A stretch of DNA of 64,000 bases, from NCBI GenBank assembly GCA_947073645.1, contig CAMTMK010000007.1, forward strand, positions 1 through 64,000. Reading direction: 5' to 3'. The notes beneath the pieces were generated by a model that made no database searches, was not told the DNA's origin, and saw nothing but the letters and a program-made list of their open reading frames with translations. The stretch's first letter is position 1; each line of letters opens with the position of its first letter. The DNA is from an uncultured bacterium. GTDB lineage: Bacteria > Cyanobacteriota > Vampirovibrionia > Gastranaerophilales > Gastranaerophilaceae. Positions 12,343 to 59,591 of the stretch are shown piece after piece. The position numbers and the translations under genes are program-made.

Positions 12343-12633
12343 ATGACAAACGGTAATTTTTTAGCAAAACTATTTTCAACTCTAGGCACCACAGCATTTG
12401 GTGTCGGCTTTATAGGTATGGCTTCCAAGGGAAACTGCGGATGCCACAATAACTTTAATTCTATATTTGGCGGAGGTTTTGGACACCCTGCTAATTTCAA
12501 CACATTTAATTACGATATAACAAACCCTTATGCGTTTTTAAACGCTAATATCACTCCTACAAATTCTGTAACACGTACAGGCTCTGCTAGTAATGTAAGA
12601 AAAACTCAGAGTGCCCCCCCCCCGAAAAGATGA
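12343..12633 (+). CDS. N-terminal segment of a putative phase-variable metallopeptidase
   Basis: A 96-residue ORF (an upstream in-frame TTG at 12316 would give 105). It has a hydrophobic N-terminal stretch (FLAKLFSTLGTTAFGVGFIG), then a Gly/Asn-rich region and APPPKR encoded by a C10 tract. It ends in TGA overlapping the ATG of the next ORF. One extra C (C11) would fuse it in frame to that ORF, giving a protein of about 390 residues. I therefore read it as the first half of a switchable or frameshifted gene. No ribosome site is obvious at either start; function of this part is unknown. Confidence 0.55.
   Translation: MTNGNFLAKLFSTLGTTAFGVGFIGMASKGNCGCHNNFNSIFGGGFGHPANFNTFNYDITNPYAFLNANITPTNSVTRTGSASNVRKTQSAPPPKR
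12614..12623 (+). repeat. Poly-C tract (C10) at a gene junction
   Basis: Ten consecutive C in AT-rich surroundings, at the 3' end of the ORF at 12343. Gain of one C fuses this ORF with the next. Such tracts slip at high rate during replication and are classical contingency elements. Confidence 0.9.
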
Positions 12634-47192: not shown

Positions 47193-47221
47193 TTGACAAA
47201 ATATTAAAAATCTTACATAAT
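47193..47221 (+). promoter_or_regulatory. Promoter of the poly-C prepilin gene
   Basis: Consensus TTGACA (47193-47198), 17 nt, CATAAT (47216-47221). It is followed by a GAGG ribosome site and ATG at 47241, so the interrupted gene still has full expression signals. Confidence 0.72.
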
Positions 47222-47240
47222 AAATTTTGAGGTATTTATT

Positions 47241-48054
47241 ATGAAAAAGCTTAAAATCCCCCCCCCCCAACGGTATCCGTTTAACCCAACATATCGGGTT
47301 TTGTAAAAATTTTAACGGTGGATTTACTTTAGCTGAGGTTTTAATCACATTAGGAATTATAGGTGTAGTTGCTTCGATAACTTTACCGTCATTAATTAAT
47401 AACTTTAAAAATCAACAATATGTAAATCAATTAAAAAAATCATATTCAGAGATTGGTAATATTTTCAAATTTATGATGGCAAAAGATGAAGTTGAAAGTT
47501 TAGATGAAACTGAATTTTTCAGCAGTTTTCCGGGAGAAACTCAAAATTCATCAGGAGTTCCTGAATACTTAGACACTGCACTGGGAAAATATTTTAACGT
47601 TTTAAAAACATGTCATAGAAACGATACAACTTGTAATTCGATTAAATATAAAAGCTTACACAATAACCCGCTAGAAAACGACATTAATGATTATAATTTC
47701 TACACAGCAGGCGGACAAATTATTTACATGGGTGAATTCAAGCGTTCCAGACTGCCTGAAGAATATAATAAAGATGCTCAATTAGCCGGCTGTCCTGCAA
47801 TAATAGGAGTTATTAGAATTGACGTAAACGGCGAAAAAGGCCCCAATAAATATGGCAGAGATTTATTTACATATCGATTATGCGTTAACGGAAAGCTCTT
47901 TGCTGAAGGCAGTAAAGAACTCTCAATGACAGCAGGAGAGAATTACACCAGCTACTGGTGGAAGACAAGCTATTCCTGCAGTGGTAATAATAAAGGTATA
48001 GGCCACGGCTGTGCCGGACGTGTTATGGAAAACGGTTGGAAAATGGATTATTAA
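47241..48054 (+). CDS. Type IV prepilin-like protein, frame-shifted by a poly-C tract (apparently phase-OFF)
   Basis: The gene starts at ATG 47241 (GAGG 8 nt upstream). A run of eleven C after codon 5 throws it out of frame, so only 21 codons are translated. With C10 it would read MKKLKIPPPNG, then NFNGGFTLAEVLITLGIIGVV and continue without a stop through the open frame ending at 48054. This gives a class III prepilin of about 270 residues, ending CAGRVMENGWKMDY. The mature part has Cys pairs and a Gly-Asn-rich C-terminus like the disrupted gene at 58867. The ATG at 47473 is not a credible start. Phase variation is the favoured reading; a sequencing or assembly error in the homopolymer is the alternative. 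Confidence 0.75.
47258..47268 (+). repeat. Poly-C tract (C11) inside a prepilin gene
   Basis: Eleven consecutive C directly after codon 5. C10 restores the full prepilin frame; C11 gives a stop after 21 codons. A homopolymer of this length in AT-rich DNA and at this position is the classical form of an on/off contingency switch. Confidence 0.92.
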
Positions 48055-50852: not shown

Positions 50853-53800
50853 ATGGACTTTTTCAATTCACTATCTCAAGTTGCCAAAAATAAAGACAAT
50901 TTTAAAAAATGGGAAGAAAATCAAAAAGACGAACAAGCCCGACGCGAGGAACTATACAAACGTCGTCAATATTCCGATGCAGAACTTGCAAAAGCTAAAG
51001 CATTAGGTGAAAACATTATTGACGTAGTTGATATAATGGATAATCACTCAGAAAGTGTTGCAGAAAACGTTGAAACTGCAACAGAGCCAATCGTTGCATT
51101 TGCTCCGTTTGCATCAATACTCGGCTCCAGCTATTTAATGGCTAAATTTGTCCACCAGCCCAATTCAAAGAAAATACATGCAATTCGAGAACAAATAGAA
51201 AATGATGAAACTGCAAAAGATTTATGCAGACGAATAAGCGAATTTAACCAGAAAAATGGCAAAAATATTTATTTTTCAGAATGGGAATTAACTCATAAAG
51301 ACAGTATTAAAAGAATTAAAAATTCTGAATTAAGAGCAGAAGCTATGAAATTTTATAATAAATTTCAAAAAGACACAGCAAAATTCAGAAAAGCACAAAA
51401 ATTCGGTTGGATAGGGGCTGCCGGACTCACTTTAGCTTCATTTATCGGTGCAAATATCTACGCTGCAAAGTTACAGGTTGACAGTTCAAAAATTGCCCGC
51501 TATCAAGCAAGAGAATCCTTAGAAGACCCGAAAGCATTTGTAAACTATACACCCGAACAAATTGCAAAAGCTAAAGAAGAAATTGCAAAACATCCTGAAT
51601 TATTAAAAGAAAAGAAAAAAGAAAAACTTAAAACAGGAATGTTTAAAAGTATTATAAACATTCTGAAAGATAGAAAAGCATATAAAGAATCCATTAAAAA
51701 TGATACAGACGAATCCAAAATCGTCACAAGAGAACTATCTCCCGAAGAATTAAAACGCGCAAAACAAGATCAGGAAGTAATTCAAAGAACAGTAAGACTA
51801 ATCAACAACGAAGCCGAAAAATACTCTCAAAATATGGAAGTAGCAGCAGAAGTTCTCGTTAACGGCACACCATTCTGGTGTGCTGCGGTTGGCGGAGCTT
51901 TAGGGTGGATTTTAAACAAAACCGGTGCAATTACAAAATTTGTAGATAAAAATATTGCTAAAAACGGTTCTGAAAAAACAAAAGAACTTTATGCAGATCT
52001 TAAAAAAGGGCAGGAAAGCGGTGCTACTTACCACCATAAATGGAACAAATTCAGAGAATCATTCCTGAATGATTTGCGTGGTATTGAAGAAAACGCTTCA
52101 CAAGATACCATAAGAGCCACAAAACGTAAACCAACAGACATTATAAAAAACACAAAAAGATGGTTTACATCAGTTCTTGCCCATCAAAAAGGCAGAAACT
52201 GGCTTGTAGCGGGCATTGGTTTTATAACAACAGGTATTGCAGGTATGATGATTGGTTTGAAACTTACCAAATCTGCATCAAGAGCCGGCAGATATACAGC
52301 AAAACGTGAACTTGAAAAAGACCCGAGAAACTTTATCGGATATACAGAAGAAGATTACAACGAAGTTTCTGATGTTAAAAACAAGAAAAAAGGTGTTTCA
52401 AAACTAAAAGAAACGGTGATGCTCCTTCCGACAGTTATGAAACAATACTTTGCTTACGAAAAATACAAAAAAACAGAATACAAAGAAAAACAAGTATTAA
52501 ACGAACTGCTCCACAAACAGGAAGTAACAGATGAACAGCTTAGAGAAGCTAAAAACTTACAACGCAAACTGTTTAATACATTCGAAAAAGTAGACGATAA
52601 TTCACAAACTTACTCAGAATCAATGGAAGCTGCGATTGATATCGCACAACCGTTTGTAGTCTATGGCGGGATCTTAACGGCAGCATCACCGTTTATCTGG
52701 GCAGGAGTTCAGATGAAACGCGGCAAACTTTCTGCTGCAAAAGTTTTGAATAAGGTTACAACATTCTTCAGTAAATCAAGTGAAAGATTAAAATCAAAAT
52801 GGTTTAAAAACTATCTTAAAAATGTAGCAAGCAACGTAGCACCTACAGTTCAAAAAACAAATGTTGAAAGCAAACCTGTTGCAAGAATTCTTCAAGGCGT
52901 TGATTTACAAAAAGACAGCATCCACACAATTTTTTCAAAAACTATTGCCAACTTAAAATCTACAACAGGCGACTTGAGAAACATGTCCGAACGCGAACAG
53001 CGAGAGGCAATATGGAAATTACGTGAAAGCATAGTTAGCACTGTAAGAACAAAAGATAAAGAATTAGCCGTAAAAATAGGTAAATTGTTTGACGGTCTTT
53101 TAGGCTGGACAGATAATCCTAATGTCAGAGCTGATGCTTTAGATATTATCCTAAATCCATCATCAATCAAAACAATGGGCAAAGAAAGATATGACGAAGC
53201 ATATCACTTCTTAAAACAAGCAATCAAAAACGGATTTGAACATCAAAAAGTAGAAAACTTCTACACTGGTATCCAAAATATGTTCCAAAAAGCCGATCCG
53301 CAAAAAATAAGAGGTTTATATGCTGAATTACGCACCATAAGCCCCGAAGCTGAAAAGGTACTGAAACCTGAAACAGTTGAAGATTTAATCAAAGGTTTGG
53401 AAAATATAAAAGGTGAAAAAACTAAAGATTTTATTGAATATGCTATTGATGAAACTTTATCTCACGAAAACGTTGTCAATATATTAGAAGCTATTAGTGC
53501 TGCAAAAACTAAACTAAAATCTATTCCAAACCTTGTTAATGAAAATCCGAAAGCAAAAGAAATGCTTGATGTATTAAATTCAATGGTTGAAATACCTCTA
53601 TCTCCAAAACAAATATCATCATTGAACAAGCTTGGAATTGCCCCCCCCCCGAATAACACTCTTAACCCAGAAACAATTCTTACACTATTTAAACAACAAA
53701 CAGCAAAAGCTAAAGGGTTGAAAATTAAAGAAGCATTTGAAATACTTCCTGAAAAAATGCGTGACCCGAAACAGGCACTAAGCTCATTCAAAGCCAAAAT

Positions 53801-54272
53801 AGAAAAAATGACTGATGATGATTTTGCTCAATTTGCGGAAGATTTACACTTCAGCAGTATGGACAGAAAAACTGTATTAGAAATTATTCCAAAACTTGAA
53901 AAGATGCTTAATAACATTCCAAAAGAAGAAATGACAGCAATCTGGAACAAAGTTGTACAAGAATTTAACGCTCATCCTGATGAATTTATTAAACTTGTAA
54001 AATCAGGTAAAGCCGGTCAAATCTTTATGACACCGGGCTTAAAAAAAGCGTTAAAAATCGCAGGTATATCATTTACGACATTTACACTTGCAATGACTTA
54101 TGCTATCGAATCATGGCTTGCAGATATCAAACTTAAAGCAGGCAGACTTGGCGTAATGAAAGCAATGGAAGGTCTGGAAGATGTCAGATATTACGCAGAC
54201 ATTGAACCTGCACAGCAGTACTCTTCGAACCTTATGACAAAAATCACTCCAAAAACTCCTGAATTGAAATAG
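50853..54272 (+). CDS. Giant membrane-associated protein with three diverged repeat units
   Basis: A 1139-residue protein, family not recognised. Each unit has a helical motif then a hydrophobic segment: ELAKAKALGENIIDVVD...NHSESV (about 44-95), ELKRAKQDQEVIQRTVR...EKYSQN (295-350), QLREAKNLQRKLFNTFE...SQTYSE (558-615). A second hydrophobic segment ends in a basic string: ARYQARESLEDPKAFVNYT (about 215), GRYTAKRELEKDPRNFIGYT (about 480), GRLGVMKAMEGLEDVRYY (about 1100). Unit three carries a 450-residue helical insertion (about 615-1060) that includes an in-frame C10 tract (APPPN, about residue 932). No signal peptide. AGGGAA precedes the ATG. Envelope or scaffold role is a guess. It overlaps convergent mgtC by 29 nt. 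Confidence 0.72.
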   Translation: MDFFNSLSQVAKNKDNFKKWEENQKDEQARREELYKRRQYSDAELAKAKALGENIIDVVDIMDNHSESVAENVETATEPIVAFAPFASILGSSYLMAKFVHQPNSKKIHAIREQIENDETAKDLCRRISEFNQKNGKNIYFSEWELTHKDSIKRIKNSELRAEAMKFYNKFQKDTAKFRKAQKFGWIGAAGLTLASFIGANIYAAKLQVDSSKIARYQARESLEDPKAFVNYTPEQIAKAKEEIAKHPELLKEKKKEKLKTGMFKSIINILKDRKAYKESIKNDTDESKIVTRELSPEELKRAKQDQEVIQRTVRLINNEAEKYSQNMEVAAEVLVNGTPFWCAAVGGALGWILNKTGAITKFVDKNIAKNGSEKTKELYADLKKGQESGATYHHKWNKFRESFLNDLRGIEENASQDTIRATKRKPTDIIKNTKRWFTSVLAHQKGRNWLVAGIGFITTGIAGMMIGLKLTKSASRAGRYTAKRELEKDPRNFIGYTEEDYNEVSDVKNKKKGVSKLKETVMLLPTVMKQYFAYEKYKKTEYKEKQVLNELLHKQEVTDEQLREAKNLQRKLFNTFEKVDDNSQTYSESMEAAIDIAQPFVVYGGILTAASPFIWAGVQMKRGKLSAAKVLNKVTTFFSKSSERLKSKWFKNYLKNVASNVAPTVQKTNVESKPVARILQGVDLQKDSIHTIFSKTIANLKSTTGDLRNMSEREQREAIWKLRESIVSTVRTKDKELAVKIGKLFDGLLGWTDNPNVRADALDIILNPSSIKTMGKERYDEAYHFLKQAIKNGFEHQKVENFYTGIQNMFQKADPQKIRGLYAELRTISPEAEKVLKPETVEDLIKGLENIKGEKTKDFIEYAIDETLSHENVVNILEAISAAKTKLKSIPNLVNENPKAKEMLDVLNSMVEIPLSPKQISSLNKLGIAPPPNNTLNPETILTLFKQQTAKAKGLKIKEAFEILPEKMRDPKQALSSFKAKIEKMTDDDFAQFAEDLHFSSMDRKTVLEIIPKLEKMLNNIPKEEMTAIWNKVVQEFNAHPDEFIKLVKSGKAGQIFMTPGLKKALKIAGISFTTFTLAMTYAIESWLADIKLKAGRLGVMKAMEGLEDVRYYADIEPAQQYSSNLMTKITPKTPELK
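53641..53650 (+). repeat. Poly-C tract (C10) within the 1139-residue repeat protein
   Basis: Ten C encoding APPP in frame. Loss or gain of one C would truncate the protein after about residue 932 and remove the last hydrophobic segment. Confidence 0.92.
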
Positions 54273-58866: not shown

Positions 58867-59591
58867 TTAATAATCCATTTCCCAGCCGTTATCTTGCAAC
58901 ACCTTGAAACATGCTGCTGCATCTGCTCCCCACAAAGAACTTGCAGCCTGACATCTTACTAAATCTGCTTTTGATTCTGCCTCAGCTTTGTCCTTCTCGC
59001 ATGCTTCATCATCTTTTCCGCAAGTAATATCAGTATAAGCTTTTAATGAACCATCATTAAATAAACCTAATACGAACACATCTCTGCCTAAAATATTAGG
59101 GCCAGATTTACCATTTGTATCAAATGCAACATAAGTTAAAAAATTACCAGTCTTATCAAATGCAACAGAATAATAACAAATACCAGCGCCACTTGTTGTA
59201 ACATGACAAGTTATACCTGTACTGTAGTTAGCTGAATTACCTGAAAGGTTTTTTGTTTGAGACCCGCCAACACAGCTATCCATAGCTCCACCACCACCAG
59301 GATTACAAGTCTTAATAATTTTCATATGATTTTTTAACAGCCTATCTAAATCTTGGTAACCAGAAACACCTGCCTCACGTAAATTTATAGCATTTCGTTC
59401 TGCAATAGCAGATTCAGTTACTTGTTGAAACTCATTATAAACTTTATGTAATTGAGTTACATAAACTTTGCGCTGATGATTTTTTGTCAAGTAGGCAGCG
59501 TCATTGCTGAAACGACTCCAATAATACCAAGAGTAACTAAAACTTCCGCTAATGTAAATGCAAATCTTCCTAAACTATTTTTTATTTTCAT
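58867..59591 (-). pseudogene. Type IV prepilin-like gene with a single-base frameshift
   Basis: On the minus strand ATG (59591) follows a good GGAG site and reads MKIKNSLGRFAFTLAEVLVT, then LGIIGVVSAMTLPT, then TGA. A continuation LTKNHQRKVYVTQLHKVYNE exists in another frame and runs to 58867, giving a prepilin of about 240 residues. One extra T in CCTACTTGACA would join the two exactly where family members continue. The internal TTG overlapping the TGA is not a credible independent start. The mature part has Gly-rich and Cys-rich loops and ends QDNGWEMDY, like the prepilin at 47241 (ENGWKMDY). Assembly error or a real null allele are both possible. Confidence 0.75.

Follow-up and report, generated by a model that had tools for sequence, protein, structure and literature searches.

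Homopolymeric tracts switch pilus-related genes in Neisseria and Bordetella, where one or a few genes are affected (e.g., pilC and the fim promoters). The contingency loci of Campylobacter are mostly surface genes, as in the gene set described here, and short repeats such as the Rickettsia palindromic elements and similar in-frame repeats accumulate in tolerant parts of proteins. The poly-G/C phasome of Campylobacter comprises 18–39 tracts in C. jejuni, which are approximately 8–12 long and lie inside reading frames; C is on the coding strand in only 5% of the in-ORF tracts, and the length range C8–C12 generates phase variation (PMC6321876). AIMS are octamers with a partial bias, present in at least 96 copies by the cited criteria (PMC5993296). 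Our literature searches on Gastranaerophilales and phase variation found no paper, and those on poly-C and prepilins returned nothing relevant, in agreement with the initial annotation, which knew of no description of phase-variable prepilins in this lineage.

In this study, we analyzed a poly-C prepilin locus in a window of 64,000 nucleotides (positions 1 to 64,000 of contig CAMTMK010000007.1). The genome of the window (G000) belongs to Gastranaerophilales and comprises 1.71 Mb in 37 contigs, with 99.8% completeness. The closest genome, G010, is from another species and carries an ortholog of the gene between the same neighbours. The features of the window are as follows.

12614..12623, plus strand: third C10 motif tract; the host gene is not a prepilin, and only C11 gives it a frame open through the tract, over 426 aa.
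47193..47221, plus strand: sigma-70-like promoter, TTGACA-17-CATAAT, 11/12 matches.
47229..47233, plus strand: ribosome-binding-site-like GAGGT, read from the sequence.
47241..47257, plus strand: start codon and first codons with the motif left flank AAGCTTAAAAT, read from the sequence; the motif is common to tracts genome-wide.
47258..47268, plus strand: C11 tract, off as assembled and on at C10 or C13 according to translation by length.
47269..47322, plus strand: leader 3' of the tract, on-frame NGIRLTQHIGFCKNFNGG; ortholog comparison gives a different open leader in G010.
47323..48054, plus strand: mature prepilin coding region, FTLAEVLITLGIIGVV... to the stop; TIGR02532 and PF07963 above cut-off, dN/dS 0.13.
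53641..53650, plus strand: second C10 motif tract, in frame in the 1139-aa ORF 50853-54272; none at the orthologous G010 site.

The ATG at 47241 is followed by AAA AAG CTT AAA AT (ATGAAAAAGCTTAAAAT) and directly thereafter by exactly 11 C at 47258-47268, with AACGG next. As assembled, the C11 run allows a product of 21 aa only. Translation with 8 to 13 C gave a 270-aa prepilin at C10, reading through NGGFTLAEVLITLGIIGVV to the end at 48054, and a 271-aa product at C13; C8, C9, C11, and C12 gave products of 13-21 aa. Full-length translation of this gene is decided by homopolymer length inside the reading frame. The start codon, ribosome site, C11 tract, and 21-codon product that the initial annotation had reported are all exact in the sequence, and its proposals of a consensus promoter and of a frame restored at C10 and ending at 48054 were borne out.

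The gene body contains a prepilin N-terminal domain (TIGR02532, E 2e-5; PF07963, E 1.5e-4; both above cut-off), including the GFxxxE prepilin peptidase site and a hydrophobic helix. The predicted fold has a helix at 4-53 followed by strands, with a mean pLDDT of only 42 in a single-sequence prediction that is too poor for a fold search. Because the window holds 13 overlapping C7 matches (3 tracts) versus 0.58 expected by dinucleotide shuffling, its C tracts are not due to chance. The 1139-aa protein of 50853-54272 has no Pfam match, and its orthologs in the genus diverge fast around the in-frame C10 tract. On the minus strand at 59561, a prepilin start (AFTLAEVLVTLGIIGVVSAMTLPT) with an immediate stop and without a C tract has the appearance of a prepilin remnant.

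A comparison with the G010 ortholog, which is between species only, showed a tract of C11 in G000 and C10 in G010, both out of frame; the latter needs C11 for read-through into the prepilin. The G010 leader is wholly different from that of G000 and equally open. For the region starting at the cleavage site, dN is 0.053 and dS is 0.407 (dN/dS 0.13), showing that the gene body is under purifying selection though off as assembled. Since the gene is off in both assemblies yet under such selection, it must be expressed some of the time, and decay is unlikely.

G000 contains 67 runs of C8 or more (42 C10, 10 C11, 9 C9, 4 C8, and 2 C12). The assemblies are consensus and mostly metagenomic, and these lengths could be biased. 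A common context surrounds 65 of these runs, and 53 of these motif tracts are in prepilin genes, after the start codon and ahead of the GFTLAEVL site, the other 12 being in other genes. Of the 53 prepilin genes, 22 have the C run on the coding strand, giving PPP leaders, and 31 have it on the opposite strand, giving GGG leaders. All 53 retain an open correct frame, and the bodies are at least 210 aa long in 50. No stop occurs in the 669 on-frame codons of the post-tract leaders, and 98 of the 106 other frames are closed. As assembled, 10 prepilins are clearly and 2 doubtfully in frame, a count that depends on the ATG chosen, and approximately 40 siblings with intact bodies are off by one or two bases. 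The share of "on" genes is approximately that expected from the length distribution, most genes needing C11 (or C8). In congeners, 36 of 38 prepilins bearing the exact C10 motif are off, in a sample picked by C10. The selection on the gene body, the different out-of-frame length in the ortholog, and these 53 similarly built genes with open on-frame and mostly closed off-frame leaders give good support to the view in the initial annotation that the gene is probably switchable rather than decayed. The locus reported there is real, but it is not single: it belongs to a family of approximately 65 tracts, restricted to the genus, with a shared motif and strict replication-strand polarity, and this changes what needs explaining.

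The tracts in non-prepilin genes are exactly C10 in 11 of 12 cases, and those in prepilin genes are more variable in length. The non-prepilin carriers include a GT2/TupA glycosyltransferase, and several carriers are in frame at C10. Visual inspection of the sequence also suggests a hexapeptide acetyltransferase and a tail-fibre-like gene among them. At L052 (G000:C5:61664), a C12 tract divides a tail-fibre-like gene into two frames, possibly representing a phase-variable prophage gene. G000 encodes a prepilin peptidase (PF01478), and dnaA lies approximately 1.4 kb from the peptidase gene (G000:C3:42516 and 44408). Loss of mismatch repair was rejected as a cause because MutS1 and MutS2 are both present in G000 and their domains were found throughout the genus.

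The flank common to sense, antisense, and non-prepilin tracts is approximately GCTYAGARTG-C10-GA. When tracts were scored with a weight matrix of one class, the median member of another class outscored all but 0.6 to 1.9% of nearby controls. C7, C8, and C9 runs were absent from approximately 0.8 Mb of examined stretches in which C10 runs occur, indicating that the C10 motif tracts form a class of their own rather than the extreme of one length distribution; neither relic C7 tracts nor motif tracts in the wrong orientation were seen there. A search of the genus found 3 to 83 copies of TG-C8..12-GA per genome in 29 of 33 genomes and none in G013, G024, G028, and G029. Outside the genus, 25 genomes of the same family, order, and class contained at most one copy each, and the reversed pattern was near zero both in the genus and in these outside genomes. 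A scan of 85,000 species with AGARTKG-C10-GAAR returned 45 stretches, of which one is a Verrucomicrobia MAG with unrelated context and the other 44 are titled Gastranaerophilales, Melainabacteria, uncultured bacterium, or "Fusobacterium sp. CAG:439". Judging from the motif, the stretches with the last two titles probably belong to this genus. The motif is common in most species of the genus and nearly absent elsewhere. Phage carriage was rejected, as matches in viral contigs had unrelated context and 43-60% GC.

The number of prepilin genes ranges from 9 to approximately 146 per genome among species of this one genus, with genomes of 1.6-2.2 Mb, and is not tied to the tracts: G029 has 96 prepilins and 0 motif tracts. 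The leaders seen in G029, G022, and G002 are mostly short. A prepilin leader of more than 100 codons in G022 (L310, G022:C73:15800-16600) is read in frame through an apparent dispersed repeat (CHCEECKARRRN...CHSEALAEESH). At L045, L067, L056, L083, and L166, the leaders from the tract to the cleavage site are made of longer repeats (e.g., GCAAGCGTAGCCGCTTGACC... and GACGAACAAGCATAAGCGG...). These repeats follow the orientation of the gene, which the C10 motif does not, and have been exchanged between orthologs.

The motif tracts of one contig are all on one strand, apart from single switches. In six genomes, with counts for G004 and G032 that cover part of their tracts, there were 7 strand switches among 200 neighbouring pairs (P ~1e-48 for random orientation). 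The plus-to-minus switch in G010 (contig C1, 259,564 to 297,873) is at the cumulative GC skew minimum, and the minus-to-plus switch in G019 (contig C11, 758 to 823 kb) spans the cumulative GC skew maximum. Each of the 7 switches is compatible with an origin or terminus as positioned by GC skew. The use of dnaA as an origin marker was rejected because in G019 it lies inside a replichore (C11:508290), away from the skew switch; GC skew was used instead. In the examined stretches, skew places the C run on the C-rich strand and hence the G run on the strand presumed to be leading. With respect to an increase in abundance toward the terminus, a property of AIMS and KOPS, tracts near the presumed origin are sparse in G026 and dense across it in G010. 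The polarity cannot stem from mRNA or protein because gene orientation is mixed (22 sense and 31 antisense). It may reflect either stability of only one run orientation at forks or strand-specific copying-in of tracts.

Ten tract-bearing prepilin genes of G000 are missing as single units from collinear G010 DNA (1.2 Mb compared). The missing units are approximately 745-914 bp in nine of the ten cases, and target-site duplications were not evident in the 10 clean cases. At L041 and at the locus studied here, the promoter side is retained between G000 and G010, and the whole prepilin or the leader is replaced beyond the tract. The non-prepilin gene at 53641 differs by the tract only, with AAGCTTGGAATTAGACCTCCTGAAACTC in G010 versus AAGCTTGGAATTGC10GAATAACACTC in G000. 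This tract is also missing in more distant relatives, and a gain in G000 is therefore probable; the receiving site already carried a match to the left flank. At L081, G010 has CCCCACTACC where G000 has C10, with the flanks retained; either the tract may have arisen in G000, or the G010 sequence may be a tract that froze and decayed. We also considered retro-insertion and an IS200/IS605 or REP origin. No reverse transcriptase (PF00078) was found in G000, G026, G007, G032, and G025, and no Y1 transposase (PF01797) was found in G000, G026, and most tract-rich genomes; both are excluded as general causes.

We propose that the gene is a translational phase-variation (contingency) locus, one of approximately 53 prepilin genes of like build in G000, with a probability of roughly 0.8. 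Among the readings considered, slipped-strand phase variation of a large prepilin repertoire accounts best for the data. A homopolymeric C tract (G in the antisense-class genes) sits after the start codon and before the prepilin cleavage site, inside the leader that prepilin peptidase removes; because the leader is cleaved off, inserted sequence would be tolerated if the frame is right. Slipped-strand mispairing would alter the tract length, and one length in three would connect the start codon to the prepilin. With a mode of C10 and most genes needing C11 (or C8), most prepilins would be off at any moment and approximately 1/5 would be on, and a stochastic mix of pilins would result across the population. 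The benefit of switching may be surface diversity. At the level of sequence, the anatomy, frames, purifying selection, length differences between species, and recurrence throughout the genus support this reading. The presence of MutS1 and MutS2 counts against switching, since slippage rates would be lower, and the 36 of 38 exact-C10 congener prepilins that are off mean that a rare on-state must be assumed. The common flank and the replication polarity are left unexplained by slippage alone. We tentatively suggest that a replication-coupled process, as yet undescribed, may copy the ~22-bp GCTYAGARTG-C10-GA onto one replication strand, whatever the gene direction, and seed switchable tracts in prepilin leaders and some surface-polysaccharide genes. 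Examples of such a process would be template switching on the lagging strand at short matches, or the action of a protein specific to one strand.

The same two properties might instead mean that the C10 motif acts primarily at the DNA level, as a replication-strand-polar chromosome-polarity signal or as a product of strand-specific copying at the fork; its abundance in prepilin leaders would then reflect tolerance to insertion, and frame switching would be a side effect. This is a serious alternative, although we do not regard it as probable. The strict polarity whatever the gene orientation, the same flank in all three tract classes, the tract probably gained at 53641 in a non-prepilin gene at a site resembling the left flank, and the uniform C10 length in 11 of 12 non-prepilin tracts all speak for it. 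Most copies, however, lie directly 3' of the start codon of a prepilin gene and control its frame, and the prepilin tracts are more length-variable than the others. Known polar signals are short and much more numerous, and a candidate enzyme was not found, reverse transcriptase and Y1 transposase being absent.

Slippage of RNA polymerase or the ribosome on the C or G run could yield an in-frame product from a gene fixed at C10 or C11, without a switch at the DNA level. Most genes have the same modal length (C10), at which the majority are out of frame; this fits such slippage, and tract lengths do not separate an RNA-level effect from a DNA-level one. We consider it improbable because tract length varies between genes and between orthologs, the required shift varies among genes, and the mRNA run is C in 22 genes and G in 31, which one signal would not serve equally. 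Slightly less probable still is decay of this gene or a sequencing or assembly error giving C11 for C10. The frame is broken as assembled and homopolymers are error-prone, but the dN/dS of 0.13 and the intact bodies of the approximately 40 siblings that are off by one or two bases argue otherwise. Moreover, one common miscall cannot fix all frames, because genes differ in the length that puts them on, and several non-prepilin genes already read in frame with C10.

If slipped-strand switching of the prepilins is correct, an uncultured, Cyanobacteria-related gut lineage has one of the larger known switchable gene sets, consisting nearly entirely of prepilins. The cell surface would vary from cell to cell in a manner unreadable from a consensus genome, and gene callers would truncate or miss approximately 4/5 of the tract-bearing prepilin genes. 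The coupling of tract strand to replication and not to gene direction poses a separate, testable question on the origin and persistence of homopolymers in bacteria.

The tracts of G000 resemble those of Campylobacter in being poly-G/C runs of approximately 8-12 in reading frames, numbering tens per genome, with frame-dependent on/off states. They differ in that 22 of 53 prepilins have C on the coding strand, with the strand set by replication direction, and in that they share a common flank and target mainly dozens of prepilins. As in Neisseria and Bordetella, a homopolymeric tract occurs in pilus-related genes, but here approximately 53 prepilin genes of a Cyanobacteria-related gut lineage are involved. 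The repeats are in a tolerant protein part, like Rickettsia palindromic elements, and the G022 leader at L310 has that look; unlike those elements, the C10 motif shows no visible palindrome, has strand polarity, and is able to shift the frame. The motif is similar to AIMS and KOPS (PMC5993296, PMC2680272) in being strand-biased and G-rich on the presumed leading strand, with polarity that flips at the origin and terminus. Unlike AIMS, it is approximately 22 bp long, has 65 tracts in G000 with no polarity exception seen, is concentrated in one gene family, and is restricted to one genus.
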